From: a virus | IMG/VR virus record: IMGVR_UViG_3300050821_002945 | Coordinates: 1 to 41,737 of that record | Length of the DNA: 41,737 nt | Reading direction: 5' to 3' (one strand) | Part shown: positions 1 to 15,676 of the stretch, one piece after another | How positions within the stretch are numbered: the stretch's first letter is position 1 | How the letters are laid out: each line of letters starts with the position of its first letter | Translations under genes and position numbers: made by a program | Notes under the pieces: generated by a model | Database searches by the model: none | What the model was told of the DNA's origin: nothing | What the model saw: the letters and a program-made list of their open reading frames with translations, nothing else

Positions 1-99
1 ATGCCAAAATTCGGAAGTAGGTTCCTTTTCGATCAAAACTCCCTTTCCTTCCAATAAACGGATTAGGTTTAAGCGATCACGCCTAGCCTTATCTAGCAA
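1..99 (-). CDS. Small hypothetical protein, truncated by window edge
   Basis: Reading leftward, 33 codons stay open from a TTG at 99 to the window edge; the C-terminus lies outside. The peptide begins MLDKARRDRLNLIRLLEGKG and looks helical and basic at its start. I choose the TTG because the ribosome-binding sequence AAAGGAG (on the minus strand, about 107-113) sits 7 nt upstream, and because the same terminator plus octaloop-hairpin module that precedes the other small leftward genes lies directly before it. No function is recognisable. It appears to be the next member of the leftward small-gene cluster. The start codon is the least certain part. Confidence 0.55.
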   Translation of the reverse strand, partial: MLDKARRDRLNLIRLLEGKGVLIEKEPTSEFWH

Positions 100-116
100 T
101 TTTTTCTCTCCTTTTA

Positions 117-136
117 AACTAGGCTTTGGACTAGTT
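117..136 (-). promoter_or_regulatory. Octaloop hairpin, copy 1 (leader of the gene at <1-99)
   Basis: In minus-strand RNA the sequence folds as a perfect 6-bp stem AACTAG/CTAGTT closing an 8-nt loop TCCAAAGC. It lies between a terminator hairpin (147-169) and the ribosome-binding site of the next small gene. Three more copies, with different stems but nearly the same loop, occupy the equivalent place before the next genes. The function is unknown; a protein-binding operator or an RNase processing site is possible. Confidence 0.6.
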
Positions 137-146
137 CTGCGAGTTA

Positions 147-169
147 AAACGCGGCATTTAACCGCGTTT
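147..169 (-). terminator. Intrinsic terminator-like hairpin after the gene at 176-358
   Basis: On the minus strand AAACGCGG pairs perfectly with CCGCGTTT (8 bp, 7-nt loop), and the 3' arm continues into a short U run. It begins 7 nt beyond the stop of the 176-358 gene, so it probably ends or attenuates that transcript before the next gene. Confidence 0.6.
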
Positions 170-175
170 CCATCC

Positions 176-358
176 TCAGTTTGTGAACCCAAAAAGTTCG
201 CTAAGATCGTTCGCGTACTCTGCGAATTGCTGCATTTCTGGCGAAAATTTCGCCCATTCTGCATCGTACTTAGCGCGCAGAATTTCCTTATAACTAGGCT
301 CATAATCCTCACCTAGTTGCTTGGATTCTTGGCGTACTATCCGACCAAATTCTGACAT
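176..358 (-). CDS. Small hypothetical acidic protein (60 aa)
   Basis: A 60-residue protein starting MSEFGRIVRQESKQ, rich in Glu, Lys and Tyr and probably helical; no known domain is recognised. The ATG at 358 is preceded by AAGGATGGTAAGGAA, a usable ribosome-binding site. It is one of five tiny leftward genes, each separated from the next by a terminator hairpin and a second hairpin with a conserved octaloop, so each is probably controlled individually rather than by simple coupling. Phage early regions often hold such small host-takeover genes, but nothing in the sequence assigns a target. Confidence 0.7.
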   Translation of the reverse strand: MSEFGRIVRQESKQLGEDYEPSYKEILRAKYDAEWAKFSPEMQQFAEYANDLSELFGFTN

Positions 359-385
359 TTCCTTACCATCCTTCGTTTATTCCGT

Positions 386-405
386 GAGTAGGCTTGGAAC
401 TACTC
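386..405 (-). promoter_or_regulatory. Octaloop hairpin, copy 2 (leader of the gene at 176-358)
   Basis: In minus-strand RNA GAGTAG pairs with CTACTC around the loop TTCCAAGC; one more A-U pair (406/385) extends the stem to 7 bp. It sits about 30 nt upstream of the ATG at 358 and downstream of the 418-435 hairpin. Compared with the other copies, both stem strands have changed together while the loop is nearly fixed. Confidence 0.6.
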
Positions 406-417
406 ATGCGGTTTATA

Positions 418-435
418 TGGGGCCATCGGGCCCCA
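418..435 (-). terminator. GC-rich hairpin after the gene at 446-808
   Basis: A perfect 7-bp stem TGGGGCC/GGCCCCA with a 4-nt loop starts 10 nt past the stop of the 446-808 gene. It lacks a long U tract (only TATA follows on the minus strand), so it may be a weak terminator or an mRNA end-stabilising hairpin. Equivalent hairpins occur at 866-886 and 1153-1171. Confidence 0.5.
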
Positions 436-445
436 CATCCTCACC

Positions 446-808
446 TTACGCTGCGAGAATTTCCGCGATTTTTTCTGGCGACATCGAAAGCAACTTAGCT
501 GCCAAATCGCCGTTTGTCTTGACGAGTTTTCGGTAGTTGGCGATTGCCTCTTTCCTTGCGGTTTTCTCTTCGTCAGTAAGCTTAACGCGAACTTTCTTAA
601 CGGACTCTGACGTATCGACGGTAATGACGCCATTCTTAGCAACTTTAGCGATTAGACCCGCTTCGTTTGCAAGTTTGGCAATCATCGAAGGAACACCAAA
701 ACCATTCCACAAATCTCCTGCGGTTTTGTGAACTGAAAACGCAACCCTAAAACGCTCCGATGGGTTACGTGGCTTGGCGACCTTGGCGACCTTAACTTTC
801 TTTCCCAT
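446..808 (-). CDS. Basic Ala/Lys/Val-rich hypothetical protein (120 aa)
   Basis: A 120-residue protein beginning MGKKVKVAKVAKPRNPSERF. The N-terminal ~20 residues are strongly basic with repeated KVAK motifs. A central part (about 45-75) reads like a compact alpha/beta fold, and the C-terminal third is a Lys/Glu/Ala-rich helix ending in KIAEILAA. The basic tail suggests nucleic-acid binding, but that is inference; no family is recognised. The ATG at 808 has GGAG 10 nt upstream. It lies in the leftward small-gene cluster between two octaloop-hairpin modules and is the largest gene there. Confidence 0.75.
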   Translation of the reverse strand: MGKKVKVAKVAKPRNPSERFRVAFSVHKTAGDLWNGFGVPSMIAKLANEAGLIAKVAKNGVITVDTSESVKKVRVKLTDEEKTARKEAIANYRKLVKTNGDLAAKLLSMSPEKIAEILAA

Positions 809-835
809 TGCTTTAACTCCTAACCGCTGAATTTC

Positions 836-855
836 GGAATGGCTTAGGACATTCC
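836..855 (-). promoter_or_regulatory. Octaloop hairpin, copy 3 (leader of the gene at 446-808)
   Basis: Minus-strand RNA folds GGAATG with CATTCC, a perfect 6-bp stem, around the octaloop TCCTAAGC. It lies about 28 nt upstream of the ATG at 808, just 3' of the hairpin at 866-886. The loop is identical to copy 4, whereas the stem sequence is unrelated to it. Confidence 0.65.
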
Positions 856-865
856 ATGCGGTTTA

Positions 866-886
866 AATGGCCCGATTTGGGCCATT
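866..886 (-). terminator. GC-rich hairpin after the gene at 895-1086
   Basis: AATGGCCC pairs with GGGCCATT (8 bp, 5-nt loop), starting 8 nt beyond the stop of the 895-1086 gene; the minus-strand 3' side continues as TAAACC. Its placement matches the hairpins at 418-435 and 1153-1171, all of which have GGCCC-type stems. Confidence 0.5.
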
Positions 887-894
887 CCTTCACC

Positions 895-1086
895 TTAATG
901 TAGGTATTTCTCTTCGAATTGAAATACCCTTGCTTTTTCGTTTTCCACATACCTGATTTCGTTTTCGGGTAGTGGGCCATTGGAGAGTTTTTCTAGAAAA
1001 CCCATCCGGTTAATCATCGCCAGTCTGACTAAATGCATTTCGGATTCAGTCAGGTAATGGCTTAGAATGTCTGACTTTGTAATCAT
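895..1086 (-). CDS. Small hypothetical protein (63 aa)
   Basis: A 63-residue protein beginning MITKSDILSHYLTESEMHLV, charged and predicted helical by eye, with no recognisable domain. The ATG at 1086 follows ACTAGGACGGTAAAGCCA. The 10-mer ACTAGGACGG recurs before the 1386 start and again at 2209-2218 with no gene after it, so it looks like a shared ribosome-binding or leader element. Part of the leftward small-gene cluster. Confidence 0.7.
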   Translation of the reverse strand: MITKSDILSHYLTESEMHLVRLAMINRMGFLEKLSNGPLPENEIRYVENEKARVFQFEEKYLH

Positions 1087-1121
1087 TGGCTTTACCGTCC
1101 TAGTTCATGCTAAACGCTATC

Positions 1122-1141
1122 GATCAGGCTTAGGACTGATC
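1122..1141 (-). promoter_or_regulatory. Octaloop hairpin, copy 4 (leader of the gene at 895-1086)
   Basis: Minus-strand RNA pairs GATCAG with CTGATC (6 bp) around the loop TCCTAAGC, 35 nt upstream of the ATG at 1086 and downstream of the hairpin at 1153-1171. This is the fourth member of the series. Confidence 0.65.
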
Positions 1142-1152
1142 TAGCGGTTTAA

Positions 1153-1171
1153 TTGGCCCACATCGGGCCAA
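1153..1171 (-). terminator. GC-rich hairpin after the gene at 1180-1386
   Basis: TTGGCCC pairs perfectly with GGGCCAA (7 bp, 5-nt loop), 8 nt beyond the stop of the 1180-1386 gene. On the minus strand it is followed by TTAAACCGC, the same trailer (AAACCGC) seen after the hairpins at 418 and 866. It probably acts as a transcript end or attenuation point. Confidence 0.5.
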
Positions 1172-1179
1172 CCCTTCAC

Positions 1180-1386
1180 CTATTCGCCGTCGTGAGCGTA
1201 CTCACAAATCAGACAATCGCCGTATTCGCCGTATTGATTTGCGTTAGTGGGATGTCCGCATGAGCGAACATAACCGAACGATGGGTCAGTCATCATTACT
1301 GACCATTCCGATTCGGTAAACCGAACCTCTTCCCTACCATCGGAATATTCGGTTACTAGGTCATCTTCGAACGTTTTGTAAGCCAT
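1180..1386 (-). CDS. Small acidic, putative zinc-binding protein (68 aa)
   Basis: A 68-residue acidic protein beginning MAYKTFEDDLVTEYSDGREE. The C-terminal part carries the Cys/His pattern SCGHPTNANQYGEYGDCLIC (about residues 42-61), with CGH and CLIC spaced like a small zinc knuckle; metal binding is inference. The ATG at 1386 is preceded by ACTAGGACGGTAAGAA, sharing its 10-mer with the neighbouring gene. It is the first gene of the leftward small-gene run; upstream (1390-1600) only structured DNA is seen. It could be an early regulator, but nothing shows a target. Confidence 0.7.
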   Translation of the reverse strand: MAYKTFEDDLVTEYSDGREEVRFTESEWSVMMTDPSFGYVRSCGHPTNANQYGEYGDCLICEYAHDGE

Positions 1387-1545
1387 TTCTTACCGTCCTA
1401 GTTTCACATCCCAAATTGGGGATTTTCAAAGCATGTTGAATCATGCGACTAGGGGCCCGACATTGGAAACGCCGAAAATGGGTCACACCTTGGAAGATGA
1501 TGCATTTTCAGGATTTCCCATCGGGCCATATCAGTCCCATCACCG

Positions 1546-1593
1546 CAGTCCGTACGTATCAGTCTCAGTAGCCTACGGACTGTATACCGTAGG
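1546..1593. promoter_or_regulatory. Two mutually exclusive perfect hairpins
   Basis: CAGTCCGTA (1546-1554) can pair over 9 bp with TACGGACTG (1574-1582). CCTACGG (1572-1578) can pair over 7 bp with CCGTAGG (1587-1593). The two helices share bases 1574-1578, so only one can form at a time, an attenuator-like layout. It lies about 190 nt upstream of the first leftward small gene (start 1386). The transcribed strand and any ligand are unknown. Confidence 0.4.
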
Positions 1594-1906
1594 TTATTCG
1601 CAAGGTCTTATTTGTTGACGCCTTACTGTCTGAATTCCAAGATACGTTTATGGATTGTCTGCTAGGCATTTTATTGACTCAAAATAACTCGCTCGGATAG
1701 TTCGAATCCCTACCTATGCGTTAATCGATTTCGATTCGATGCCACAGGCAATTAGACTCTAGATTTTTCATGCGGCCTAGGTGTCTGACTTGCACGCCTA
1801 AACCTAACCCACGTCTATTCAGACACACGGGGCCGAACGGGGCCGCTACGTGGCTGTAGGACGCTGTAGCGCGACGCTACGGGGCCATACTCTTAATCTC
1901 TATCCT

Positions 1907-1945
1907 TCACACAGTCAGGGTAAACATCGGTTTGTCAGTCATCAT
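1907..1945 (-). CDS. Possible 12-codon leader peptide
   Basis: ATG at 1945 to TGA at 1907 encodes MMTDKPMFTLTV. It is noted only because an excellent ribosome-binding sequence (AAAAAGGAAA) sits immediately upstream in an otherwise gene-free stretch and because it is followed on the minus strand by a tight hairpin (1866-1880). Chance occurrence is quite possible. Confidence 0.2.
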   Translation of the reverse strand: MMTDKPMFTLTV

Positions 1946-2743
1946 TTTCCTTTTTCCTAGGCTTGGCTTGGCGTTACCGCTTTCCCTCTCTGCTATCGGA
2001 AAGACTTAACCATTTATCGCGCCGTCCCATGTCAACGGGGCCCTATCCTCTCTCAGTTTTCGATTTGCAATGAACCTGTTGGGTATTTGGTTCACCTAAG
2101 ATACGTTCGGTTTGATTGCGCTCTGATTGGAAACGCTACCCTTCGATGGATCGCTTTAGGTTTCTACTTTCCGGTTTTCCAATTGCCTGTTACAGCTATT
2201 GGGTTTCGCCGTCCTAGTCGCAGACTGAAACGTATTCCCACCTTGACTGTATGAACCGAACCGACATGGGGCCATCTGACTGGCGTCCCTACCGGTATCG
2301 GATTTGTAAGGTTCTGCTACTCGATCCTACTCTGACCGGATTCTTTAGACCGGTATCTCGATGATCGAATAGTTACTGCGGTTTCCCGCAAGACAAGTAG
2401 ACGATATATCGGCCTAGCCTGTCAGTTAGTTCTTGTTAGTTTAATTGAGATTTGTTAAGTCTTGTACTGGTGAGTACTACAGCTAGAAAATCAGTCTGGG
2501 CCAGTCTGGGGAGTGCTGCGAAACCATGCTCTTGGAATCGTAACCTATAGATTGACAAAATGATTTATTCAATAAAAGTATGGATTAATTCCCTAAGCCA
2601 TGGAGTGACATGAAACGGAAAATAGAGTATGGGAGTGCCCTAGAAATCCTACCGGGCCGTGTGGGGCATCGTAGGGCCCGTACGTAGATGGCATGATAAT
2701 GTAAGTGAGTATCAAACACTTGTTTGTTTTGATCTAGTTAAAT

Positions 2744-2788
2744 CCAAGCACTCTTGTATTTTCGAAGCACTAAATGCTTGGGTTTTCT
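2744..2788 (+). terminator. Possible plus-strand terminator with an alternative pairing
   Basis: CCAAGCA (2744-2750) pairs with TGCTTGG (2775-2781), followed by GTTTTCT. A closer competing arm AAGCA (2765-2769) can pair with the same TGCTT. The short U tract makes termination only plausible, and no rightward gene is seen upstream to need it. Confidence 0.25.
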
Positions 2789-2909
2789 ATTGATATTGAA
2801 TGTTCCTTATCATACAGATAAACACAGACAATTCACAGGAATGGCCGTATGGCTTTCTCTGTGATGGATCGGAGTGGCGGGTCGGCGGTGTTCAATCTCG
2901 TGAGTAATA

Positions 2910-3020
2910 CTAAAAAGTTTCATTTTTAATTACTAGTATTATTCCTGCTATTAAAAACCCAACTGAGGTGACTAGAAGACTCCAATCAAACAACCACAAT
3001 AAACCAGTAATAGTAGACAT
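2910..3020 (-). CDS. 36-residue single-pass membrane peptide
   Basis: ATG at 3020 to TAG at 2910 encodes 36 residues beginning MSTITGLLWLFDWSLLVTSV. Residues about 6-32 are almost entirely hydrophobic (GFLIAGIILVI) and end in the charged tail KNETF, the pattern of a one-helix membrane peptide. GGGAGGG lies about 11 nt upstream of the ATG. It stands alone, about 125 nt downstream (minus sense) of the candidate small-RNA terminator. Function is unknown; tiny phage membrane proteins include superinfection-exclusion and lysis-control factors, but no motif decides between these. Confidence 0.5.
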   Translation of the reverse strand: MSTITGLLWLFDWSLLVTSVGFLIAGIILVIKNETF

Positions 3021-3144
3021 AATTACTAAGTCCCTCCCCACCAGACCGATTATTTAACGTTGTCGTCCTCACAACATTCTGCCCCGTTTCCGAGTGTCAG
3101 TTCCGTACTTGTTGCCTCGCGCCGGATATGCGAGTTGAGTAGAA

Positions 3145-3180
3145 ATAAAAAAGCCCTAAGAGTTTCCTCCTAGAGCTTTT
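3145..3180 (-). terminator. Intrinsic terminator, strong in the leftward direction
   Basis: AAAAGCCCTAAGAG (3149-3162) pairs with CTCCTAGAGCTTTT (3167-3180): 14 positions with two mismatches and a 4-nt loop. On the minus strand it runs into a TTTTTTATTT tract, an intrinsic terminator. It closes both the candidate small RNA and any read-through from the leftward operon that ends at 3304. The plus-strand tail (CTTTTCTAT) is weaker. Confidence 0.8.
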
Positions 3181-3256
3181 CTATCTACCAAGTTTCCCAC
3201 TCCGTCAAGTGTGCTGCCATTCAGAGTGGTGTGAAACGTAACTTTCGGCAGCACGT
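3145..3256 (-). ncRNA. Candidate ~110-nt small RNA with an H-type pseudoknot
   Basis: The region has its own promoter (3262-3290) and terminator (3145-3180) and no ORF. In minus-strand RNA GTGCTGCC (3254-3247) pairs perfectly with GGCAGCAC (3218-3211). Inside that loop GTTTC-ACA-CCACTC (3237-3224) is complementary to GAGTGG-GAAAC (3202-3192) downstream, giving 6+5 bp with a 3-nt bulge. The two helices interleave as an H-type pseudoknot with linkers of about 9, 5 and 8 nt. The predicted start lies at the edge of the first helix. No known RNA family is recognised. Confidence 0.5.
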
Positions 3257-3261
3257 CAAGA

Positions 3262-3290
3262 AGGATACTACATCAGAAACTTCTTGTCAA
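3262..3290 (-). promoter_or_regulatory. Sigma70-like promoter for the small RNA
   Basis: On the minus strand a perfect -35 TTGACA (3290-3285) is followed after 17 bp by TATCCT (3267-3262); an overlapping TAGTAT is closer to the -10 consensus but spaced only 14 bp. It starts 14 nt beyond the stop of the 3304-3528 gene and points toward 3256. CTTGAC also recurs at 3259-3254 and 3209-3204. Confidence 0.6.
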
Positions 3291-3303
3291 GTGCTATTTT
3301 AAT

Positions 3304-3528
3304 TTATCCAATTATGTAGCAATGTGGACAATGACATATATTCGGATTGTTCGCTCTGGCCCGACGCATCTCCTTACGATCTCGTTCCATTTGCTCATTA
3401 AACTCTCTATCTGCCTCTCTAAGGATTTTTTCCATATCTATATCTACAGGTTTGCCGATACTAACTAGTAGTCGGCCAAACTCATCTTTATTCTTATACA
3501 TGTTACTTGTCAGGTTCTTGGTCATCAT
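3304..3528 (-). CDS. Hypothetical protein with C-terminal Cys motif (74 aa)
   Basis: A 74-residue protein, the last gene of the leftward operon. The middle is a charged helix (about residues 33-60, with READREFNEQMERDRKEMRR) likely to coil. The tail carries CHCPHC (residues 65-70), a compact possible metal site. The ATG at 3528 overlaps the upstream gene by 26 nt; a second ATG one codon on is an equal candidate. No family is recognised. A promoter for the candidate small RNA follows within 15 nt of its stop. Confidence 0.65.
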   Translation of the reverse strand: MMTKNLTSNMYKNKDEFGRLLVSIGKPVDIDMEKILREADREFNEQMERDRKEMRRARANNPNICHCPHCYIIG

Positions 3529-3826
3529 CTTCTACAAAGTAAACCTTAAATCGGGGGGTACGGCCTTTCTCTTTAAGAATTCTTTCAAATGCTTCTTTAA
3601 ACACACTAAACGCATGTGGATTGTGAATTAACATAGTGGCGTTTCCAGATGGGGTGTATTTGCCAAACGTACCGTGTTTTGCGGCGTTCATCTGGACTTC
3701 GCCGCCCATCTCTGTGTAATAAGTCTTTTGACCATCTACTTCTTTATAGTCACTAACTGGAACTAATTTAATTCCAGAAATATAAAAACGTGCTTCTATA
3801 ACCGTCTTGTCTGTATCGATCTGCAT
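3503..3826 (-). CDS. Hypothetical protein (107 aa)
   Basis: A 107-residue protein beginning MQIDTDKTVIEARFYISGIK. The N-terminal half is rich in beta-prone residues, a helix (about residues 70-87, AFSVFKEAFERILKEKG) follows, and the tail is very acidic (EDDDQEPDK). No family is recognised. The ATG at 3826 has AAGGA 8 nt upstream. The upstream gap (3827-3883) contains two small hairpins, CTAGC/GCTAG and GCGC-TAAG-GCGC, so expression may be adjusted separately from the gene before it. Confidence 0.7.
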   Translation of the reverse strand: MQIDTDKTVIEARFYISGIKLVPVSDYKEVDGQKTYYTEMGGEVQMNAAKHGTFGKYTPSGNATMLIHNPHAFSVFKEAFERILKEKGRTPRFKVYFVEDDDQEPDK

Positions 3827-3883
3827 GGGTGATCCTTCGCGCCTTAGCGCAGAATCCGTCTATCTAGCCTGGGTAGCTAGAGT

Positions 3884-4231
3884 TCACCCAGGGGTAAGTA
3901 TAGCTAGTTCTTTATCAATATTCCACATGGCGCAATTTAAATTAGGAAATGGCCCGTAAATTTTATCTCCGACTTGAATTTTTATGGCCCCGCCCCAAGA
4001 TTCATAGGAATTGTATTCAAAGAACTGCCCACAAAAGATAGTTACATCGTATTGATTTAAGTCTTCTGTGTAGTTACCACCTAACTTACAGAAGTGATTA
4101 ATAAATTGTTCTAAGGTTATTCTATCTTTCCAAACTCCACCATAGTCGAACTGGTATCTTCCACAAAAACTACAATATCGATAATGATATTTAAGGTTTA
4201 GTTGCCAATATTTACATTCATGTCTAGACAC
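3884..4231 (-). CDS. Hypothetical Cys/Tyr/Trp-rich protein, putative zinc binder (115 aa)
   Basis: A 115-residue protein starting with GTG at 4231 (MSRHECKYWQLNLKYHYRYC). The N-terminus holds HEC, then YCSFCGRYQ (CxxC), which with nearby His could form a zinc ribbon. The rest is rich in aromatic residues and Gly. The start overlaps the end of the upstream gene by 8 nt, as is typical of this operon. No family is recognised; metal binding is inferred from residue spacing only. Confidence 0.65.
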   Translation of the reverse strand: MSRHECKYWQLNLKYHYRYCSFCGRYQFDYGGVWKDRITLEQFINHFCKLGGNYTEDLNQYDVTIFCGQFFEYNSYESWGGAIKIQVGDKIYGPFPNLNCAMWNIDKELAILTPG

Positions 4232-4469
4232 GTTGTAGTTTGTCCCAAGGTACTGAAAATTGTAATATCCTATCTTTTCTTAATTTTTCGAGTCTAAGTT
4301 TTTCAAACTCTTCTTCATTCATAAGTGTGGTTACTTTAAAAGTTTGATTAGGATAATACTTAAGAAAATCTTCTATTTCTTCTGCTTTACAAAGAGTCTC
4401 CAAAACAATCATAGTATCTGGATATTCGATTCCACTAGATTGAACAGCTTTAATATGATATACGATCAT
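4224..4469 (-). CDS. Hypothetical protein (81 aa)
   Basis: An 81-residue protein beginning MIVYHIKAVQSSGIEYPDTM. The pattern of a strand, then helix-rich Glu/Lys sequence (NEEEFEKLRLEKLRKDR), suggests a small alpha/beta protein; no family is recognised. Its ATG (4469) overlaps the TGA of the methyltransferase gene (ATGA), indicating translational coupling within the leftward operon. It lies between the sugar-modifying genes and small zinc-binding proteins. Confidence 0.65.
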   Translation of the reverse strand: MIVYHIKAVQSSGIEYPDTMIVLETLCKAEEIEDFLKYYPNQTFKVTTLMNEEEFEKLRLEKLRKDRILQFSVPWDKLQRV

Positions 4470-5143
4470 TTAATTAAATCTGTCCTTATGAACATTACAT
4501 CGTTATGTGAAACAATAGGGCTGTCGCGGGTAAAACCTCTTTTTTCAAGCCAGTTAGTAATTTCTTGTCCCGAAGCCTCTCCGTTCCATAAAGGAGTCTC
4601 AGAACACTCAATCATTAAATATTTCATTTGATATATATATCTTCCGAAGCCCTCCAAGACCTGAAGTTCCATTCCTTGTACGTCAATAACTAAGGTGTCG
4701 TAAGGCGCAAGGGCCCAATCGTTAATTCCAACCCAATCATCAAATCTTGAACACACAACCATCTCTTCGGCTGTTTTGGTATTTGGAATCCAACCCATCT
4801 TTATTGCATTTTCGGCCGGAATTTGACCTAAACCAGTTGCTCCCTTTGTGTCCCATACTCCGTTGAATTCAGAAACAGTCATTTTTAAAGCTTCTGATTT
4901 ATTTCCAAGAGCGCAGTTTGAAATGTAAACCTGTCCGGAGGCAATTTCAGGAGCATAATTTTTCAAACAAGCCATATATGCGCTATATATAGGTTCAAAT
5001 CCTAAAACTGGCAAACGGCCAACGTGCCAGTACCAAGTGATCTCTTCACCGTCATTCATACCTACATGAATGACTCCATGTAATTTGTAGCCCTTTTTAA
5101 TAAAATGGTCTTCCTTTCCATATCCAAGGGGTGCGCGTGGCAT
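4466..5143 (-). CDS. FkbM-family SAM-dependent methyltransferase (copy 1, 225 aa)
   Basis: A 225-residue Rossmann-type methyltransferase of the FkbM family, whose members usually O-methylate sugars or glycan ends. The SAM-binding motif I is HVGMNDGEE (residues 26-34, usually HVGAN.G), followed by the acidic motif GFEP (about 48-51). The family signature YDTLVIDVQGMELQVLEGFG lies near residues 148-167, and MIECSETPLWNGE follows. It is clearly paralogous to the protein at 19036-19704 (shared DVQGMEL..L.GFG and ECS.TP). The gene starts 1 nt after the glycosyltransferase stop, suggesting the two modify the same glycan. The target is unknown. Confidence 0.85.
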   Translation of the reverse strand: MPRAPLGYGKEDHFIKKGYKLHGVIHVGMNDGEEITWYWHVGRLPVLGFEPIYSAYMACLKNYAPEIASGQVYISNCALGNKSEALKMTVSEFNGVWDTKGATGLGQIPAENAIKMGWIPNTKTAEEMVVCSRFDDWVGINDWALAPYDTLVIDVQGMELQVLEGFGRYIYQMKYLMIECSETPLWNGEASGQEITNWLEKRGFTRDSPIVSHNDVMFIRTDLIK

Positions 5144-5144
5144 T

Positions 5145-5675
5145 TTAGTCCTTTAAGGATTCAATCCTTTTCTTTTCTGTGTAAGAAACTCCGATTTTAT
5201 GGTGGAATCTTACTTTGTCTGAAATAATTACTTCTTCTTTTGGAATTGAATGACACCAATCATCTAATAAATCTCCGTTAGGCATTGGATATTTTTCTAA
5301 AAGTTGTCTATCTACTACAGCACAAAAACTTAGGAATCCATCATATGTGGAATTATCATCTGATTGTCCACAAACAAACTTATTTGGAATACAAAGAGAA
5401 CGCATAGTTCCTTCAAGAATGGTTACGTCAGAATCTAACATTCCAATGTAATCGCCAGAAGCCACCTTACAACCTAATCTAAGATTTCCAGCGTGGCCCA
5501 ATCTTTTATGAAAAAGATAAGTATCAGCTACTATTCTTAAAAAATATTGTGATCCCCCATCTTCAGAGATAACAAGTTCATCACACATACCTCTGACTTG
5601 ATTTGATAAATGCAAGGCCATACGTGCCAATTCGATTGAGCCAGACCAAGTAGGAATAACAATAGAAAGAGTCAT
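5145..5675 (-). CDS. GT2-like glycosyltransferase, short (176 aa)
   Basis: The 176-residue sequence has the GT-A start MTLSIVIPTWSGS, then LVISEDGG, and the metal/nucleotide-binding DxD-type motif GMLDSDVTILEG (near residue 100), followed by DDWCHSIP. At 176 residues it is shorter than typical family 2 enzymes and lacks a long acceptor domain, so it may be a minimal transferase. Known family members move a sugar from a nucleotide donor. It is followed without a gap by an FkbM methyltransferase. AAAGGAAAA precedes the ATG at 5675, just after the tRNA gene. Confidence 0.8.
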   Translation of the reverse strand: MTLSIVIPTWSGSIELARMALHLSNQVRGMCDELVISEDGGSQYFLRIVADTYLFHKRLGHAGNLRLGCKVASGDYIGMLDSDVTILEGTMRSLCIPNKFVCGQSDDNSTYDGFLSFCAVVDRQLLEKYPMPNGDLLDDWCHSIPKEEVIISDKVRFHHKIGVSYTEKKRIESLKD

Positions 5676-5696
5676 AGTTTTCCTTTAAATAAATAG

Positions 5697-5766
5697 TTCC
5701 AGAGGTAGGATTCGAACCCACACTACTTGATCCAAAATCAAGCCGCCTACCATTAGCTACTCTGGA
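5697..5766 (-). tRNA. tRNA-Gln (anticodon TTG)
   Basis: A 70-nt cloverleaf: 7-bp acceptor TCCAGAG/CTCTGGA with discriminator A, a short D arm with AATGGTA in the loop, anticodon stem CTTGA/TCAAG with loop TTTTGGA (anticodon TTG, reading CAA), 4-nt variable loop, and T arm GTGGG-TTCGAAT-CCTAC with one G-U pair. CCA is not encoded. It lies inside the leftward operon between a small gene ending at 5768 and the glycosyltransferase start at 5675, so it must be excised from that transcript. It may supplement decoding of Gln CAA codons, frequent in the phage genes. Confidence 0.93.
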
Positions 5767-5767
5767 A

Positions 5768-5875
5768 TTAAACTATCTTTTCGCAACGAGCGCAATAAAC
5801 CCCAAATCTAGTTCTAGGGTCGTGTCGCCAGTCGTGGTCAATCAGTAGACAAATTATCAGTTTTAGAAGTTTCAC
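5768..5875 (-). CDS. Small CxxC protein (35 aa)
   Basis: The reading frame ending at TAA (5768-5770), 1 nt before the tRNA, encodes ..LIDHDWRHDPRTRFGVYC followed by ARCEKIV. The layout of a hydrophobic N-terminus, then HDW, then CxxC, is common among tiny phage proteins of unknown function. The best start I see is GTG at 5875 (MKLLKLIICLL), overlapping the upstream gene by 38 nt; the ribosome-binding site is weak. The two Cys could bind metal with the His residues. Too short for reliable family assignment. Confidence 0.45.
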   Translation of the reverse strand: MKLLKLIICLLIDHDWRHDPRTRFGVYCARCEKIV

Positions 5876-6092
5876 TTGGCTTCATTTTGTCTAGTAACTC
5901 ATTTCGTTGAACTTCTGTCATACCTTCGGCGTCTGCTGGTTTTGTTTGAACTTGACCCCAAGCTGTTAAATATGGACAGTTTACTTGATGTCCGTGATAC
6001 ATCTGACAATATGGGCAAGGTTGACTGTTTGCATGAGCCTCGTCAGCCGCTCTTACGATATCTTCAGGACTTTCACTTTTCTGTTTTGGCAA
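5838..6092 (-). CDS. Putative zinc-finger hypothetical protein (84 aa)
   Basis: An 84-residue protein beginning MPKQKSESPEDIVRAADEAH. Residues about 26-41 contain CPYCQMYHGHQVNCPYL, a CxxC..HxH..C arrangement suited to one zinc ion. The C-terminal half is polar (Lys/Ser/Thr/Asp). The ATG at 6092 overlaps the upstream gene by 20 nt. No family is assigned. It is one of several Cys/His-rich small proteins in this operon, which may mediate protein or nucleic-acid contacts. Confidence 0.7.
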   Translation of the reverse strand: MPKQKSESPEDIVRAADEAHANSQPCPYCQMYHGHQVNCPYLTAWGQVQTKPADAEGMTEVQRNELLDKMKPSETSKTDNLSTD

Positions 6093-6330
6093 TTAAATCT
6101 CCTATACGAATTATTCCATTGTCGTTGAATTTCCAGCGACCAGTATATTCATGGTCACCAGGACACTCTACACAGAATATCTTACCTTCCCACCAAACTT
6201 TACATTGATTCTTTTCAATGGCGTGTTGAGTAAATTGCTTAAGGAAGGTACTAATAGGAATTTGATTAACCAAAGATGTCTTTAATACGCTGTGTAGGGG
6301 TTGGGGCGTTAATATTTTGTTGGTCGCCAT
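6073..6330 (-). CDS. Hypothetical protein (85 aa, or 66 aa from a later TTG)
   Basis: Starts at ATG 6330 (GAGG about 10 nt upstream), overlapping the upstream gene by 65 nt. A TTG at 6273 would give a 66-residue form with only 8 nt overlap, more like its neighbours. The core WWEGKIFCVECPGDHEYTGR (with CVEC) followed by WKFNDNGIIRIGD looks like a small beta-rich zinc ribbon. No family is recognised. The start choice is undecided because neither site has a strong ribosome-binding sequence. Confidence 0.6.
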   Translation of the reverse strand: MATNKILTPQPLHSVLKTSLVNQIPISTFLKQFTQHAIEKNQCKVWWEGKIFCVECPGDHEYTGRWKFNDNGIIRIGDLIAKTEK

Positions 6331-6460
6331 GTGTATGTGGCCTCAAACTTTTTAAAACGTTATTTGCTTCATACTCAGAGGTTCCTTCCCAGAGAATCTC
6401 ATGAGTATCTTCTTCTTCGATTCTAAACTTACCTTCCAATTGAATCAATCTGATCTTCAT
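6266..6460 (-). CDS. Hypothetical protein (64 aa)
   Basis: A 64-residue protein beginning MKIRLIQLEGKFRIEEEDTH. The pattern of beta hairpin, then WEGTSEYEANNVLKSL helix, then a polar tail ending QRIKDIFG, suggests a small folded domain; it is not recognised. Its start overlaps the preceding gene by 32 nt and its tail overlaps the next gene, so the region 6266-6330 may be coding in two frames. Confidence 0.6.
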   Translation of the reverse strand: MKIRLIQLEGKFRIEEEDTHEILWEGTSEYEANNVLKSLRPHTHGDQQNINAPTPTQRIKDIFG

Positions 6461-6770
6461 GGTCTAATCCTATATCATTCCCAAGAAATGCGTTTACTAA
6501 TTGTTTCATGAGTAGGGTGTGTTTTTGAAGTTCAATAAGAATTTCTTCTTCAATTGAAGTAGGAACAGGAGAATCTATAGCTTCTCTGAGAAATATAGAG
6601 TTTTTACGCAAGGGAGATAAAGGAGGGCCAAGTAAGGTAGACGAATTTTCTTTAAGTTGAACTGGAACCGTTACAACATCAGTATTTAATAATTCAGGTG
6701 GAGTTTTAGTATTTGCTGTTCCACTTGCACCTGTCATTCGGGCCAATAACTCTTCCTTAGTTAGAGACAT
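6429..6770 (-). CDS. First gene of leftward operon; MSLTKEELLARM-type protein (113 aa)
   Basis: I start this gene at ATG 6770 (not the longer frame back to 6914) because AAGGAGAGCAAGG lies directly upstream. The N-terminus MSLTKEELLARM closely matches MGLSKEELLKRM of the protein at 40414-40740, and both leaders contain ATATAAGGAGA, so the two are related or share a short functional tag. The middle is Pro/Ser/Thr-rich and the C-terminus (IEEEILIELQKHTLLMKQLV) is a probable coiled coil. Function is unknown; the match to a gene beside the lysin hints at a virion or assembly role. Confidence 0.7.
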   Translation of the reverse strand: MSLTKEELLARMTGASGTANTKTPPELLNTDVVTVPVQLKENSSTLLGPPLSPLRKNSIFLREAIDSPVPTSIEEEILIELQKHTLLMKQLVNAFLGNDIGLDHEDQIDSIGR

Positions 6771-6795
6771 CCTTGCTCTCCTTATATATGTGAGT

Positions 6796-6867
6796 GGGTC
6801 GGGGGGAAAGTGGAAGCGGGGGCTTCTCTTCATCCTGGTTGTTACATCAAGGCCCCCGACCCGTAAC
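6796..6867. promoter_or_regulatory. Nested competing inverted repeats in the divergent promoter region
   Basis: GGGTCGGGGG (6796-6805) is perfectly complementary to CCCCCGACCC (6853-6862). CGGGGGC (6817-6823) competes for the same arm (GCCCCCG, 6852-6858). GTTAC (6841-6845) also pairs with GTAAC (6863-6867). The block lies in the 160-bp gap between the leftward gene starting at 6770 and the rightward gene starting at 6932, where promoters for both directions are expected. A weak leftward candidate (TTGAAC at 6915-6910, 18 bp, TAGCAT) is present. Confidence 0.45.
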
Positions 6868-6931
6868 AAGTATACAACAAGTGGTATGCTATTAGTATGA
6901 AATATATCGTTCAATATTTAAGGAGAGGTTA

Positions 6932-7225
6932 ATGGCGGATTTTCCAGTTGCGGTTCCACCAGGAACACCACAAGTTGATAGAGCCTATCTAGAAGTTCCA
7001 CAAGACGAAACCCCACCCTCTTCACCGGATGATCCGCCTGTTAAATTTGTTGAACCTAAATTACTTCATATTATGGTTAAGGTAGATCAAAAACCACTTA
7101 TGACTGCGGTTGATAAGGCTATAAAGGAAAATGATATTCAAAGAGTTATTAGTCTTTTTAATAATGGAAAATTTGTAGCTGAACGTGCAGGTGAGATGTT
7201 GGTAAACGTGGTGATGAAACCTTGA
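6932..7225 (+). CDS. Hypothetical Pro-rich-N-terminus protein (97 aa)
   Basis: First gene of the rightward operon. AAGGAGAGG ends 4 nt before the ATG, a strong ribosome-binding site. The first ~40 residues are rich in Pro and acidic residues (PQDETPPSSPDDPP). Residues about 45-97 look like a folded alpha/beta unit (HIMVKVDQKPLMTAVDKAIK). No family is recognised. It is translationally coupled to the phosphatase-like gene through a TTGA overlap. Confidence 0.7.
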   Translation: MADFPVAVPPGTPQVDRAYLEVPQDETPPSSPDDPPVKFVEPKLLHIMVKVDQKPLMTAVDKAIKENDIQRVISLFNNGKFVAERAGEMLVNVVMKP

Positions 7226-7557
7226 AGTATCTCTGTGTTTGTAATGGAGCCCATGTTCGATCCGTAACTCTCGCACGTTTGTTGAATAAGCGTGGTTTTG
7301 AAGTACTCACTTGTGGAGTGGATTCAGATTTTAGTGATGATACTATTAAGATGTTATTTAATTGGGCTGATAAAGTATATGTTCTTGGTGGCGATAGTCT
7401 TGCTAAGTTAATGAAACGAAACGTACTTACAAATGAAACTTCTGGAAAAATCGACCATACAACATTTAATGTTGGATTAGATGACTGGAAAGTTCCTCAA
7501 CATCCAGAATTGCTTAAATTACTAAGGGATAGATGTATTCAGGTGTTTGGACAATGA
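7222..7557 (+). CDS. Low-molecular-weight protein tyrosine phosphatase-like protein (111 aa)
   Basis: The N-terminus MKYLCVCNGAHVRSVTLARL contains the phosphate-binding loop CX5RS (Cys7, Arg13, Ser14) after a hydrophobic strand, as in low-molecular-weight phosphatases and the COG4551-type predicted tyrosine phosphatases. Near the C-terminus GLDDWKVPQHPELLKLL matches the Asp-containing loop plus helix that supplies the general acid in this family. At 111 residues it is the size of the short COG4551 type. TTG start at 7222 overlaps the previous stop. The substrate is unknown: a phosphoprotein, phosphosugar or signalling compound are all possible. Confidence 0.75.
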   Translation: MKYLCVCNGAHVRSVTLARLLNKRGFEVLTCGVDSDFSDDTIKMLFNWADKVYVLGGDSLAKLMKRNVLTNETSGKIDHTTFNVGLDDWKVPQHPELLKLLRDRCIQVFGQ

Positions 7558-7754
7558 GAATTACAATTGAGATTCCAGATAGTTGGCCGAAGGGGAAAGA
7601 TTGGAGAGCGTCTGGATTAATGAAGTGCGAAAAGGATGGATGCAGTTTTATTACTCCTGATGCGGGAGCCTTTTTAAATCACCTTTATCAAGTTCATCTG
7701 ATGGATGAACTTACTAAACCAGATTTACCAGAAACACTCACTACCGCTCCATGA
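7554..7754 (+). CDS. Single C2H2 zinc-finger protein (66 aa)
   Basis: I start at ATG 7554, which overlaps the preceding TGA (ATGA). Residues 25-48 fit C-X4-C-X12-H-X4-H exactly (Cys25, Cys30, His43, His48), with hydrophobic Phe and Leu at the usual core positions, so a classical C2H2 finger is likely. A short N-terminal segment (MRITIEIPDSWPKGKDWR) precedes it. Single-finger C2H2 proteins are uncommon in bacteria but known in phages; DNA or protein binding cannot be decided. Confidence 0.7.
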   Translation: MRITIEIPDSWPKGKDWRASGLMKCEKDGCSFITPDAGAFLNHLYQVHLMDELTKPDLPETLTTAP

Positions 7755-7846
7755 TTTTTTGGATTGTTGGAATTGTTGGGTTCATTTTATTGTTGATTGT
7801 GGTAGGGATATGGATATACGTAACCTTCTTTCATCCAGTAGGATAA
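7751..7846 (+). CDS. 31-residue single-pass membrane peptide
   Basis: ATG at 7751 overlaps the zinc-finger gene stop (ATGA) and runs to TAA at 7844-7846. Of 31 residues, about 25 are hydrophobic (FWIVGIVGFILLLIVVGIWI), giving one membrane helix with a short tail FFHPVG. Tight coupling with its neighbours supports it being real despite its size. Function is unknown; membrane targeting of neighbouring products or altering the host envelope are guesses. Confidence 0.6.
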   Translation: MIFWIVGIVGFILLLIVVGIWIYVTFFHPVG

Positions 7847-8139
7847 AAAGATTCTTATGGTTAGTGTTTTTCCGAAGATGGTTTCAACGAAAGAGACTTG
7901 GAACTTTTTGGTGTGATAAACATTGGAAGGTTATAGAAAATTCTCAACTTGATCTACAACCAATTGATCCTGCCATTGCTGCGGCAGGAATAGCCGCTGC
8001 TTTGTATTTAAAGGGAATTGAACCAGAGTTTGTTCGAAAAAATGGAACAGCCTGTTGTATACTTAATACAATGAGTAAGTCGTTAAATTTGTTAGACGGA
8101 ATTTTTGAAAGATCAAGAGGATGGATACCAATAAAATGA
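7810..8139 (+). CDS. Hypothetical protein (109 aa; start uncertain)
   Basis: The frame is convincingly coding in its second half (FWCDKHWKVIENSQLDLQPI, then DPAIAAAGIAAALYLKGIEP). I use ATG 7810 with AGGG close upstream; this overlaps the small membrane-peptide gene. GTG at 7864, beginning just after that gene's stop, would give 91 residues and may be preferable. The basic N-terminus (RRWFQRKR) followed by CDKHW could be a metal or nucleic-acid contact. No family is recognised. Confidence 0.6.
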   Translation: MDIRNLLSSSRIKRFLWLVFFRRWFQRKRLGTFWCDKHWKVIENSQLDLQPIDPAIAAAGIAAALYLKGIEPEFVRKNGTACCILNTMSKSLNLLDGIFERSRGWIPIK

Positions 8140-9160: not shown

Positions 9161-10268
9161 AAGATGTCTTGCAATTGGCATGGGCTATCAAAAACATGTC
9201 GAGCGCGTGATGATGTGGACTTTAGAGCAGTTCTTTAAGCAATACAAGATTCCATATACACCCAATAGATCAACTGCAACATTCACTCTCTTCAATGGCT
9301 CTCAAATTATTTTTGGTTCTAGTGAGAATCCAGAGTCACTTGAGGGCCCTCACGTTGATTGTGCGTGGATAGATGAAGCAGGATATATGCCACGTCTTGC
9401 TTGGGATGTTGCAACTCGTCGTACCGATTATCAGGAAGGGCCAATTCTTATTACAAGTGTCCCTTATTATCTAAATTGGCTTAAGACTGATCTTTACGAT
9501 GAATGGATTAAGGGCGATCAAGATATTGATTGGATTCATTGTCGATCTGCTGATAATCTAAAATATAGTCAAACAGTTCTTGAAAGGGTTAAAAGGACAA
9601 GAAGGCCAGAATATTATGAAATTTATTATGAAGGTAATTTCGCTCGGCCTTTTGGCCTCATATATGGCGATCCTCCTAATGATTCTATTGTGGTCGATTC
9701 TGAATCTCTTTTTCCCAACGGGATACCTAATGATTGGCCTTGTTACTCTGGACATGACTTCGGAATTAATAATCCTAATGCCGGTGTATGGGGCCGTCTT
9801 GCTCCTGATGACACTTTATATATTGTTGCGGAATATCAAGCCCCTGAATTAACGATGAAATCTCATGTTGAAAGATGGCGTAGGGCAGGTTTGGATAATA
9901 CGGATCAATCTTTTGGTGATCCCGCTGGTGCAGATCAAATGCTTACTGCCGCAGAAGAAGGTTTTAATATTGAGAAAGCAAATAATGATATATTATTTGG
10001 AGTTGATCTTGTTTATGATCGGTTTAAAACTGGTCGTCTTAAGATACTTAGAGGATGTAAAACTCTTCTTGACTATCGTTCTTTGTATGTTTGGAAAAAG
10101 AACCCCAAGAATGAAGATGAGTTAATGGATCAACCTGAAAAACCTCAACCATCCGAACACATGATGGATGCTCTAAGATATCTTTGTACGGGTATTTTCG
10201 AGAATGTTGCTGGAAACACCGATAACAATACTCCCGAGTTGAGGATAAGAAGAAGAAACGTTGCCTGA
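8928..10268 (+). CDS. Terminase large subunit (TerL, 446 aa)
   Basis: The ATP-driven packaging motor and headful nuclease. Walker A is GGTGAGKT (residues 55-62), Walker B is CAWIDE (145-150) and a coupling motif ITSVP lies at 175-179. The RNase H-like nuclease has acidic residues at HDFG (Asp277), GDPAG (Asp331) and MDALRY (Asp414). The upstream sequence LHQLKAYHSKKRFIPLIGG is the usual TerL lead-in, so the protein must begin well inside the TerS frame: ATG 8928 is used, with TTG 8961 or 9015 as alternatives. The length is normal for the family. Confidence 0.93.
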   Translation: MGKHKKEIDRPLLSTSNPTPTISKQENSSLSINPNFYLHQLKAYHSKKRFIPLIGGTGAGKTWFAPYWILKHLMEPGKRCLAIGMGYQKHVERVMMWTLEQFFKQYKIPYTPNRSTATFTLFNGSQIIFGSSENPESLEGPHVDCAWIDEAGYMPRLAWDVATRRTDYQEGPILITSVPYYLNWLKTDLYDEWIKGDQDIDWIHCRSADNLKYSQTVLERVKRTRRPEYYEIYYEGNFARPFGLIYGDPPNDSIVVDSESLFPNGIPNDWPCYSGHDFGINNPNAGVWGRLAPDDTLYIVAEYQAPELTMKSHVERWRRAGLDNTDQSFGDPAGADQMLTAAEEGFNIEKANNDILFGVDLVYDRFKTGRLKILRGCKTLLDYRSLYVWKKNPKNEDELMDQPEKPQPSEHMMDALRYLCTGIFENVAGNTDNNTPELRIRRRNVA

Positions 10269-12617: not shown

Positions 12618-13770
12618 CGAGAAAGACCTTACTTTAAGTGATGTCATAAGTGATACTGCTCAGATATTAGCGGGTCGTTTACGATCTCAACTTAAAGAGA
12701 TAGAAGATGCAGGTAAGGCTCTTAAAGCTGAAGTTGCTCATGTTAAAGATTTACATCAAAAGGATATTCAATATTACATTGGTGAAATTGCTGGTTTAAA
12801 AGAGAGTAATCAACTTCTTCAGGAACGAGTTGCGGAATTTTTACCTCGACCCCCTGAACATCAACATGATCCAGATGAACCAAACGCAGTTTTTACTTTC
12901 GATCAGGATGGTACTTTAAAACCTCAAGTTTCCCAAGGAGATGGTGGAAATTATCCTATTTTAGAAGTTCCATTTCCTAATGTTAAAAAATGGTTAGACC
13001 GATGGACAGCAAGAAAGGTCTGTATTCATCTTGCTACTGCTGGTCTTTATTATGGTGGGCCCCAAGATTTAGAAATTTATATGGCAAGACTTGAAATGCT
13101 TAAGTCTTGGGCTATGGCAAATGGTCTTCCTATAACTTGTTATCTTCCTAAAATTCCTTCAGATATTTATTATGATGATCGTATGATTGTTATTCCTGGT
13201 GACCCCACCCTCAATAGGAAGAAGAATTCCAAATTTGTTCCTGATTGGGATGCAATCGGCATGTTAGTTGAATCAGATATGAAAAAGAGATTTGATTTAG
13301 TTAATGGTGAGTGGATTCGTCAACCTAAAACAAGAGTAGGAAAGGAAATTGATGATTGGCCTAGTGTAGAAGATTATCCAAAAGATTTTCCTCGTGGATA
13401 TTCTGGGCCGCGAATTGATGTGGATATGCATAGAACTCTTTCTCTTGCCTCTTCAAGTTTACGATTAGCACCCCCTAGACCCGGTGCGCGAGAAGCCCTT
13501 ATAATTCTCTTTAATGGCGGAATAACAATTCGTATTTCTTGTGCGGGTTGGAATCCTAAAACTCATACAAAAAGTGACGCCGATCGTCGTTTAGCGGCAA
13601 TCAGACAATGGTTGTTAGAAAATAGCATTCCTTATGATAGAATCGTTACCAAAGATCATGCTGACCTGTATTTTGATGATAAAGGTTTTAGATTTACTTC
13701 ATGGGAAACTGATTTACCAGGAATTCAGAAGCGATTACCAGAGGAAGAGTCATACAGGCATGGAGATTAA
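12610..13770 (+). CDS. Tandem HAD-like phosphatase-domain protein (386 aa)
   Basis: ATG 12610 overlaps the portal stop and has GGAAC 7 nt upstream; an ATG at 12598 is less likely. Residues 1-~80 form a coiled coil. Two HAD-type units follow. Unit 1 has TFDQDGTLK (Asp98, Asp100), LATAG (Thr143), Lys181 and YYDD (Asp189/190). Unit 2 has IDVDMHRTL (Asp270, Asp272), ISCAG (Ser310), TKDHADLYFDD (Lys348, Asp356/357). Both keep every HAD motif residue, so both may be active phosphatases. The family acts on phosphosugars, nucleotides or polynucleotide ends; the substrate here is unknown. It sits between portal and head-protease genes. Confidence 0.75.
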   Translation: MINEKDLTLSDVISDTAQILAGRLRSQLKEIEDAGKALKAEVAHVKDLHQKDIQYYIGEIAGLKESNQLLQERVAEFLPRPPEHQHDPDEPNAVFTFDQDGTLKPQVSQGDGGNYPILEVPFPNVKKWLDRWTARKVCIHLATAGLYYGGPQDLEIYMARLEMLKSWAMANGLPITCYLPKIPSDIYYDDRMIVIPGDPTLNRKKNSKFVPDWDAIGMLVESDMKKRFDLVNGEWIRQPKTRVGKEIDDWPSVEDYPKDFPRGYSGPRIDVDMHRTLSLASSSLRLAPPRPGAREALIILFNGGITIRISCAGWNPKTHTKSDADRRLAAIRQWLLENSIPYDRIVTKDHADLYFDDKGFRFTSWETDLPGIQKRLPEEESYRHGD

Positions 13771-13877: not shown

Positions 13878-15676
13878 GCGGATTACATCAAGATACAACT
13901 ACAAATACAGATATTAATTATTTAGGAGGCCCTATAGGGGGTCATGGAGGTAGAACTACGGGTAAAACGGGACGCGATGCAGATGAAGACCCTAAGCATG
14001 ATAGAGAAAGAGATGTAGGGAACCATGCTGATGTGGATGCATCTGAACGAGGACGTACTCAGGTGCGATTACAGTCAATGCCAAATGGTGAATATCCAAT
14101 TAGAAATGCTGCTGAATTAAAGGCAGTAATTCGTGAATGGCAGACTGGTCTAGTTTCTAATCGTTATAGTGGAGCAGAGATTCAGCGACACATTATTCGT
14201 CGGGCTCGTGATCTTAAATTAGTAGCTCTTTTACCTGATGCTTGGGGTGTTAGTCTTGAAATTATGTCTGAAGGATTGATTTCTGAGGCTAATATATTTT
14301 TAACTATTGAGCAATTAGAGAGTGAAAGTCGTAATTTTGGGGCTGCACAGCGTAGAAAATATGCGAGTCAAGGTATTGCCTTACCAGATGGCTCTTTTCC
14401 TATCCCTGATAAGGATGCTCTTAGACGAGCTATCAAATTGGTTGGGAAGGGGGGGGCGGGAGCCAAGAAACACATCATAAAAAGGGCCAAAGCTCTTGGC
14501 GCAACTAGTATGCTTCCTGATACGTGGGGCGTAGCTGCCGAAGAAAAAGAAGAGGAATTTTTAATGGCTGAAGTGTTTCAATCGTTTCTTGTTTTAGAAG
14601 GGAAAAATGTTCCCCAACCTTTAGTTCTTGAAGATAACGGTGTTGACAAGACAATGAAGGTAAGGGTTCCTTTCTATATTGGCGATTCGATAACACATGC
14701 TCCTGGTTTTGATAAAAGAATCTTTTTCCCCACATCTTTATTACAAGAAATTGTTAAAGATGGAAAGGATGATATCGCAGCGGGTATTCAACCGCTGACC
14801 GTTTATGCGCGTCACGCTCACGCAGCCGACGCCGATTATTTGCCAATTGGCGGCGTGTCTGATTTGAAAGCGGAAGGTAGCGTTGGCTACGCTATCTTGG
14901 ACATCGAGCCAACGACTTACGGCAAGGACGCTCAAGTTTTACTTCGTGCCAAACCACCGAAATTGAATGCAGTTTCGTTGCGGTCTGGTAAGAGTAATTT
15001 TGAGATGGAACGAGTCGAGGTTAATGGTGAGATGATGTATCGTCCTAAGAAGCTTCGTTTGTCTGGAATCGATTTCGCACCTGATTCCCCGGCAATGAAG
15101 ACTTATGGGATTGAGATTCTGGCCGCTGAAAATTTGAACGTGAAGCTAATACCAAATTCAAAGGAGGACAAAAACAATAAAGTGCCTGATAAACTGACCT
15201 TGGAAGCGGTCAAGGCTGAGCCTGAGATCGTTGCCGAGATCGAGCGTCCAATCGTTGCAAGATTAGATGTTGAATTGAAGAAGAATGAAACGCTAACTGC
15301 GGAGAATACTTCTCTCAAAGAAAAACTTGCAAAGGTTGAAATTGATGCTTTTGTGCTTGAAATAGCATCGAAGCATCCGAAGCGTGATGAAGTTCTTCCT
15401 ATTCTTACTGAAATGGCGAAAACTTGTAAGTCTAAGGATGAATTTTCTACAAAGGTTTTTCCAATTCTTATGGAAGCATTACAAAGCGCTCCAAAGCAAG
15501 GCGAAAAGCTGAAGCCACCCGAGAAGTCACCTGAAGATAAATTGCGTGATCTTTTTGGTGCTGGTAGTGGTGGACGTGGCGTTGTTCGTCTTGAGAACGG
15601 TGAACCCGTTACTGAAGAGGAAGACGAAACCGAACTTAAGGGTGAGCATGTCGGCGTTCTACAGGTTCCAAATTAA
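13874..15676 (+). CDS. Fused prohead protease and scaffold with two DUF6582-like repeats (600 aa)
   Basis: Four parts can be seen. (1) A disordered charged N-terminus (1-~70). (2) Two copies of a ~50-residue unit, GEYPIRNAAELKAVIREW..HIIRRARDLKL..LLPDAWGV and GSFPIPDKDALRRAIKLV..HIIKRAKALG..MLPDTWGV, like the DUF6582 unit often attached to actinophage head proteases. (3) A protease domain (about 240-425) with YARHAHA and AVSLRSG supplying the probable His and Ser. (4) An acidic coiled-coil scaffold (TLTAENTSLKEKLAKVEI) and tail. It would scaffold then mature the procapsid. It lies just before the capsid gene, as expected. DNA for the HAHA region is more GC-rich (84 of 150 in 14781-14930). Confidence 0.8.
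   Translation: MSGLHQDTTTNTDINYLGGPIGGHGGRTTGKTGRDADEDPKHDRERDVGNHADVDASERGRTQVRLQSMPNGEYPIRNAAELKAVIREWQTGLVSNRYSGAEIQRHIIRRARDLKLVALLPDAWGVSLEIMSEGLISEANIFLTIEQLESESRNFGAAQRRKYASQGIALPDGSFPIPDKDALRRAIKLVGKGGAGAKKHIIKRAKALGATSMLPDTWGVAAEEKEEEFLMAEVFQSFLVLEGKNVPQPLVLEDNGVDKTMKVRVPFYIGDSITHAPGFDKRIFFPTSLLQEIVKDGKDDIAAGIQPLTVYARHAHAADADYLPIGGVSDLKAEGSVGYAILDIEPTTYGKDAQVLLRAKPPKLNAVSLRSGKSNFEMERVEVNGEMMYRPKKLRLSGIDFAPDSPAMKTYGIEILAAENLNVKLIPNSKEDKNNKVPDKLTLEAVKAEPEIVAEIERPIVARLDVELKKNETLTAENTSLKEKLAKVEIDAFVLEIASKHPKRDEVLPILTEMAKTCKSKDEFSTKVFPILMEALQSAPKQGEKLKPPEKSPEDKLRDLFGAGSGGRGVVRLENGEPVTEEEDETELKGEHVGVLQVPN

Follow-up and report, generated by a model that had tools for sequence, protein, structure and literature searches.

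The fluoride/crcB, ZTP/pfl and preQ1 transcriptional riboswitches each join a pseudoknot to an intrinsic terminator. A second kind of promoter-proximal RNA comes from HK022, where putL lies just downstream of the PL promoter and suppresses termination; the put RNA is ~70 nt long, folds into two stem-loops and has proven antitermination activity (PMC9378689). GOLLD and ROOL, in turn, are large phage RNAs (PMC12286853). The locus compared here with these systems occupies positions 3290-3145, on the minus strand, of a 41,737-nt stretch (the window) from an IMG/VR record. This uncultured phage contig carries T4-type terminase and portal genes and tape-measure genes. A preliminary description had presented the locus as a free small RNA of ~110 nt with its own promoter, pseudoknot and terminator. 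We lean towards reading it instead as the promoter and leader of a leftward unit, in which an ORF-free RNA is followed by an operon of small genes punctuated by ribozymes. Sequence comparison shows the position of the promoter, compensatory changes in the 5′ helix, conservation of the RNA past the terminator and the ribozyme matches downstream.

Like the three riboswitch classes, the locus would place a 5′ pseudoknot ahead of an intrinsic terminator within an operon leader. Unlike them, it has no Rfam match and no pairing that competes with the terminator, as an antiterminator exclusive with the terminator 5′ arm would, and the next element is a non-coding RNA rather than a metabolic gene. With HK022 put it shares a structured RNA directly after an early phage promoter, with termination downstream on the same transcript. 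It differs in having one pseudoknot and a single adjacent terminator, with no sign of antitermination. Two adjacent stem-loops spanning ~70 nt are absent, and the two relatives that share the leader have one hairpin at that place. The neighbouring ORF-free region is, like GOLLD and ROOL, a candidate long structured RNA, and unlike them it matches neither family in Rfam. ToxI-like systems, with tandem pseudoknot repeats and a toxin gene directly past the terminator, do not fit either: the unit is not tandemly repeated in window positions 1-8000, and 1685 nt around and beyond the terminator (1619-3303) hold no ORF of at least 60 aa. The preliminary description recognised no family, and the search it had suggested agreed, as 3290-3145 matched no Rfam 15 family at gathering threshold; the best sub-threshold scores were 17.8 bits for His_leader (threshold 49) and 14.3 for NsiR1 (threshold 39).

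Promoter and 5′ helix in three phages

Among GenBank phages the best portal match is ~24% identical, and no close relative was found there. The major capsid gene of the window contig was assigned by conservation and position, and profile searches with portal and capsid recovered related contigs. The useful ones for comparison with the window were G005 (69.9 kb) and G009 (10.8 kb), both from uncultured phages, and G001 (50 kb). G005 is probably a complete genome, because one gene spans both its ends; the G009 sequence stops ~0.5 kb past the leader and covers little of the downstream part. Two portal homologs (L003 9888-12356 and L004 3625-6549) contain an additional internal stretch that the window portal lacks; their matches split around window residues 353-390, and the stretch may be an intein or some other insertion.

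The RNA is present once in the window. By blastn, the 110-nt RNA matched G005, G009 and G001 at chance level, whereas the adjoining region does match. DNA similarity searches of the RNA against phages, and of its region against phages and plasmids, also gave chance-level matches only. The proteins encoded nearby at 3503-3826 and 4466-5143 retrieved no relatives when searched against viral contigs, and scans of genome contigs with the capsid profile and a conserved 19-mer found no matches; all database searches were limited to the collections named. G005 has its homologs of window 3503-4469 at 44-47 kb. The upstream neighbours thus differ, and the leader still adjoins the non-coding region. Upstream of the leader, the leftward gene cluster includes a minus-strand tRNA-Gln (TTG anticodon) at window 5766-5696.

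Table 1. Coordinates of promoter, RNA and ribozyme features in the window and related contigs
Feature	Contig	Coordinates	Strand	Details
Promoter	window	3290-3262	minus	TTGACA (3290-3285), 17-nt spacer, TATCCT (3267-3262); 10/12 match
Homologous promoter	G005	13719-13747		TTGACG-17-TAGCCT; same 17-nt spacer as window
Homologous promoter	G009	10215-10243		TTGACG-17-TAGCCT; same 17-nt spacer as window
Helix S1	window	3254-3211	minus	GUGCUGCC (3254-3247) with GGCAGCAC (3218-3211); at predicted transcript 5′ end
Candidate pseudoknot pairing S2	window	3237-3192	minus	3237-3233 and 3229-3224(3222) with (3204)3202-3192
Intrinsic terminator (predicted by fold)	window	3186-3143	minus	GCUCUAGGAG-GAAA-CUCUUAGGGC, then UUUUUUAUUU
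Conserved element downstream of terminator	window	3072-3010	minus	AATCGGTCTGGTGGGGAGG at 3051-3033; 78% identity to G005
Candidate long non-coding RNA or leader	window	2400-1395	minus	~1 kb without long ORFs, strongly structured
Twister-P5 ribozymes (four)	window	1180-1124, 894-838, 445-388, 177-119	minus	41.1-46.4 bits; gathering score 37.6
Twister-P5 ribozymes	G005	15172-15231, 18344-18432, 18701-18758 (in L032)		above Rfam gathering score
Twister-P5 ribozyme	L033	2668-2777		above Rfam gathering score

The minus-strand promoter of the preliminary description was confirmed. It is the sole 10/12 site in window positions 1-8000, where sigma70-like sites as a class are not enriched (12 observed versus 19 expected by shuffling). 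On the minus strand of positions 1-4180 no other sigma70-like site reaches even 9/12. The operon at 1386-1 is thus left without a better candidate, and the sole good promoter for the RNA past the terminator lies upstream of that terminator; these statements concern sigma70-type promoters, and phage-specific ones between 3145 and 1386 are possible. The homologous promoters of G005 and G009 score just 8/12. A promoter-pattern search matched only these two and L040, which is the same sequence as G005, so the leader has two independent relatives. From the promoter we infer a transcription start at ~3256-3254, which would place the first bases of the RNA already in helix S1.

S1 consists of 8 bp and one extra G-U pair. 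In all three phages a helix begins 4-7 nt past the -10 box, with arms that mostly differ in sequence and keep their pairing: GUGCCCUU/AAGGGCAC in G005 and GUGGGGC/GCCCCGU in G009, matched to the window arms by position and not by sequence alignment. Shuffling gave p = 0.0003 for a helix of this strength at the expected 5′ end in the window, and 0.003 and 0.012 in the other two. Arms swapped between phages do not pair fully. Judged from these sequences, S1 shows compensatory change across the three phages, and the 8-bp helix proposed earlier is thereby borne out.

The first bases of S1 also admit a coding interpretation, in which a leaderless transcript would begin translation at GTG 3254, at its very 5′ end, and encode a 32-aa leader peptide. 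A GTG does lie 4-7 nt past the -10 box in 3/3 phages, with open frames of 32 (window), 19 and 29 codons. However, frames so short are expected by chance, the peptides are alike in neither sequence nor length, and the GTG belongs to S1; we regard this interpretation as very improbable. The earlier statement that the locus has no ORF was nearly right, the exception being this GTG frame (3254-3156), which has no Shine-Dalgarno sequence and nothing resembling it in the relatives.

Predicted pseudoknot and terminator in the window lineage

The S2 pairing, which would close an H-type pseudoknot with S1, consists of 8+5 bp flanking a 3-nt bulge, with a possible extension by 3223-3222/3204-3203. By a rough estimate of energies, the pseudoknot would be more stable than the best nested fold (-27.3 versus -21.3 kcal/mol), and among simple H-type pseudoknots S1/S2 scores best on both strands of the 41.7 kb. 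Shuffles of the body alone matched its strength in 1/4000 cases. However, an equally strong pseudoknot arose somewhere in 12/120 whole-window shuffles, and once S1 is fixed S2 is reached in 1.1% of shuffles (p = 0.011). It is therefore the place of the pseudoknot between promoter and terminator, and not its strength alone, that sets it apart. The pairing that had been described is present in the window and missing from both G005 and G009 (p = 0.76 and 0.97). Chance pairing in an ordinary leader, in which only promoter, 5′ hairpin and terminator matter, could account for this absence and for the results of the whole-window and S1-fixed shuffles, and would be compatible with the leader reading. 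Set against it are the body-only shuffles and the rank and exact location of the pseudoknot, and we consider chance pairing possible, if doubtful.

A scan of the relatives for a pseudoknot followed by a terminator found a comparable arrangement in G001 (31362-31478, equal to L002 4296-4180, minus strand). This intergenic segment lies directly before an ORF and has a pseudoknot (p ~0.01) with loop proportions as in the window RNA, then a 12-bp terminator. It was rejected as a homolog, having no sequence identity to the window RNA and no clear promoter. A further match, at G005 33283, falls within a gene, and the scan thus gives false positives.

The terminator described earlier was recovered by folding. 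A 10-bp GC-containing stem (3176-3167/3162-3153) with a GAAA loop precedes U6AU3, and the stem lengthens to 20 bp through A/U tracts. Compared with shuffled sequence, the whole RNA has a much more stable fold (z = -5.9). The suggestion that an AGGAGG in this region binds or mimics ribosome-binding sites found no support, the bases being buried in the terminator stem. In the window phage, the leader would additionally fold the pseudoknot and end at this strong terminator, so that most transcripts would be released as a compact, 5′-protected RNA of ~110 nt, read-through would be limited, and the operon would be reached only by read-through or antiterminated polymerases.

Read most directly, the sequence gives a transcript that starts at ~3255 and ends at ~3145, and to that extent the free ~110-nt RNA stands; an isolated small RNA gene is the less likely interpretation. 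In G005 and G009, promoter and S1 are retained, the corresponding place has no terminator, S2 is missing and the RNA would continue into a long ORF-free region, which argues for the leader of a longer unit. An independent gene whose RNA has phage or host targets in trans, with the downstream region transcribed separately, would agree with the complete promoter-body-terminator anatomy, the stability of the fold, and a strong terminator that nothing in the leader pairs to disrupt, so that termination looks constitutive. Yet the promoter and S1 of the relatives lead into a long RNA, no discrete unit with its own terminator is conserved there, S2 is not conserved, and no target or binding partner was identified. 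We consider an independent gene unlikely; a free small RNA function is possible and is not supported by conservation.

Returning to the leader reading, we looked for antiterminator pairing with the terminator arm and found none, the best helix between leader and terminator being 5 bp (-7.3 kcal/mol). A cis mechanism for regulated read-through is thus not apparent from the sequence. The pseudoknot might still set read-through by acting on RNA polymerase, as HK022 putL suppresses termination just past PL (PMC9378689), or by sensing a ligand, as in the fluoride and ZTP riboswitches. Structure right at the start of a phage transcript, directly before a terminator and with conserved sequence beyond, would suit such a role. 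However, the locus has no Rfam match, put RNA has two stem-loops and not a pseudoknot, no alternative pairing would break the terminator, and in the relatives S1 occurs with no terminator next to it. We judge cis-acting control of this kind quite unlikely. The stronger proposal of a new leader class, in which a 5′-terminal pseudoknot governs the adjacent terminator and so the supply of a kilobase-scale RNA and a twister-cut operon, seems to us still less probable.

RNA and ribozymes beyond the terminator

The RNA downstream of 3145 still appears to be selected as RNA, because an element and a hairpin there are conserved with compensatory changes. The element matches G005 13888-13949 at 78% identity over 63 nt (E 1e-6). 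In the hairpin at 3077-3057, comparison of three sequences shows four pairs changed on both sides with the stem kept, support that comes mainly from the window versus G005, as G009 breaks 4/7 pairs in this register and has its own, slightly shifted hairpin. A hydrophobic 36-43 aa ORF at 3041-2910, considered as a small membrane protein, was dropped; the aligned G005 segment does not have its ATG.

Further along, the structured ~1 kb has a stability of z = -4.1 on the minus strand versus -3.2 on the plus strand (1395-2394) and no Rfam match. ORF-poor structured regions occur near corresponding places in G005 (~14340-14915) and G001 (~36600-37680); the three are ~0.6-1 kb each, with little mutual sequence similarity. 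We know of nothing in the GOLLD or ROOL families that corresponds to the 110-nt leader.

Each of the 4/4 intergenic gaps examined in the small-gene operon downstream in the window holds one Twister-P5 ribozyme, lying at the stop codon of the preceding gene and ahead of the ribosome-binding site that follows. The path of the G005 transcript likewise runs through ORF-free RNA with the 63-nt element into an operon of the same kind, with twister ribozymes in several gaps. By its Rfam matches, this is apparently a small-gene operon punctuated by self-cleaving ribozymes, and it is arguably more striking than the leader. A limited search of open-access papers returned no description of such an operon.

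The leftward unit would then run from the leader through ~1.8 kb of ORF-free, partly structured RNA to small genes separated by twister ribozymes, with the leader presumably controlling the operon. If this holds, a conserved 5′ helix stands at the head of a long non-coding transcript in a group of uncultured phages with only remote database relatives, and one lineage has a terminator between the transcript start and the operon with its ribozymes. The result would be a simple model of dosage control, open to testing, with a very stable short RNA as by-product. Coordinates are now at hand for the structured long RNA and for the twister ribozymes in successive intergenic gaps.

A motif resembling AACTAGGA[CT]GG occurs before small genes in G001 (37630-37680, 38041-38095) and on the minus strand of the window (1105-1092, 1403-1390). 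It sits inside repeated intergenic hairpin-like segments that have no twister score.
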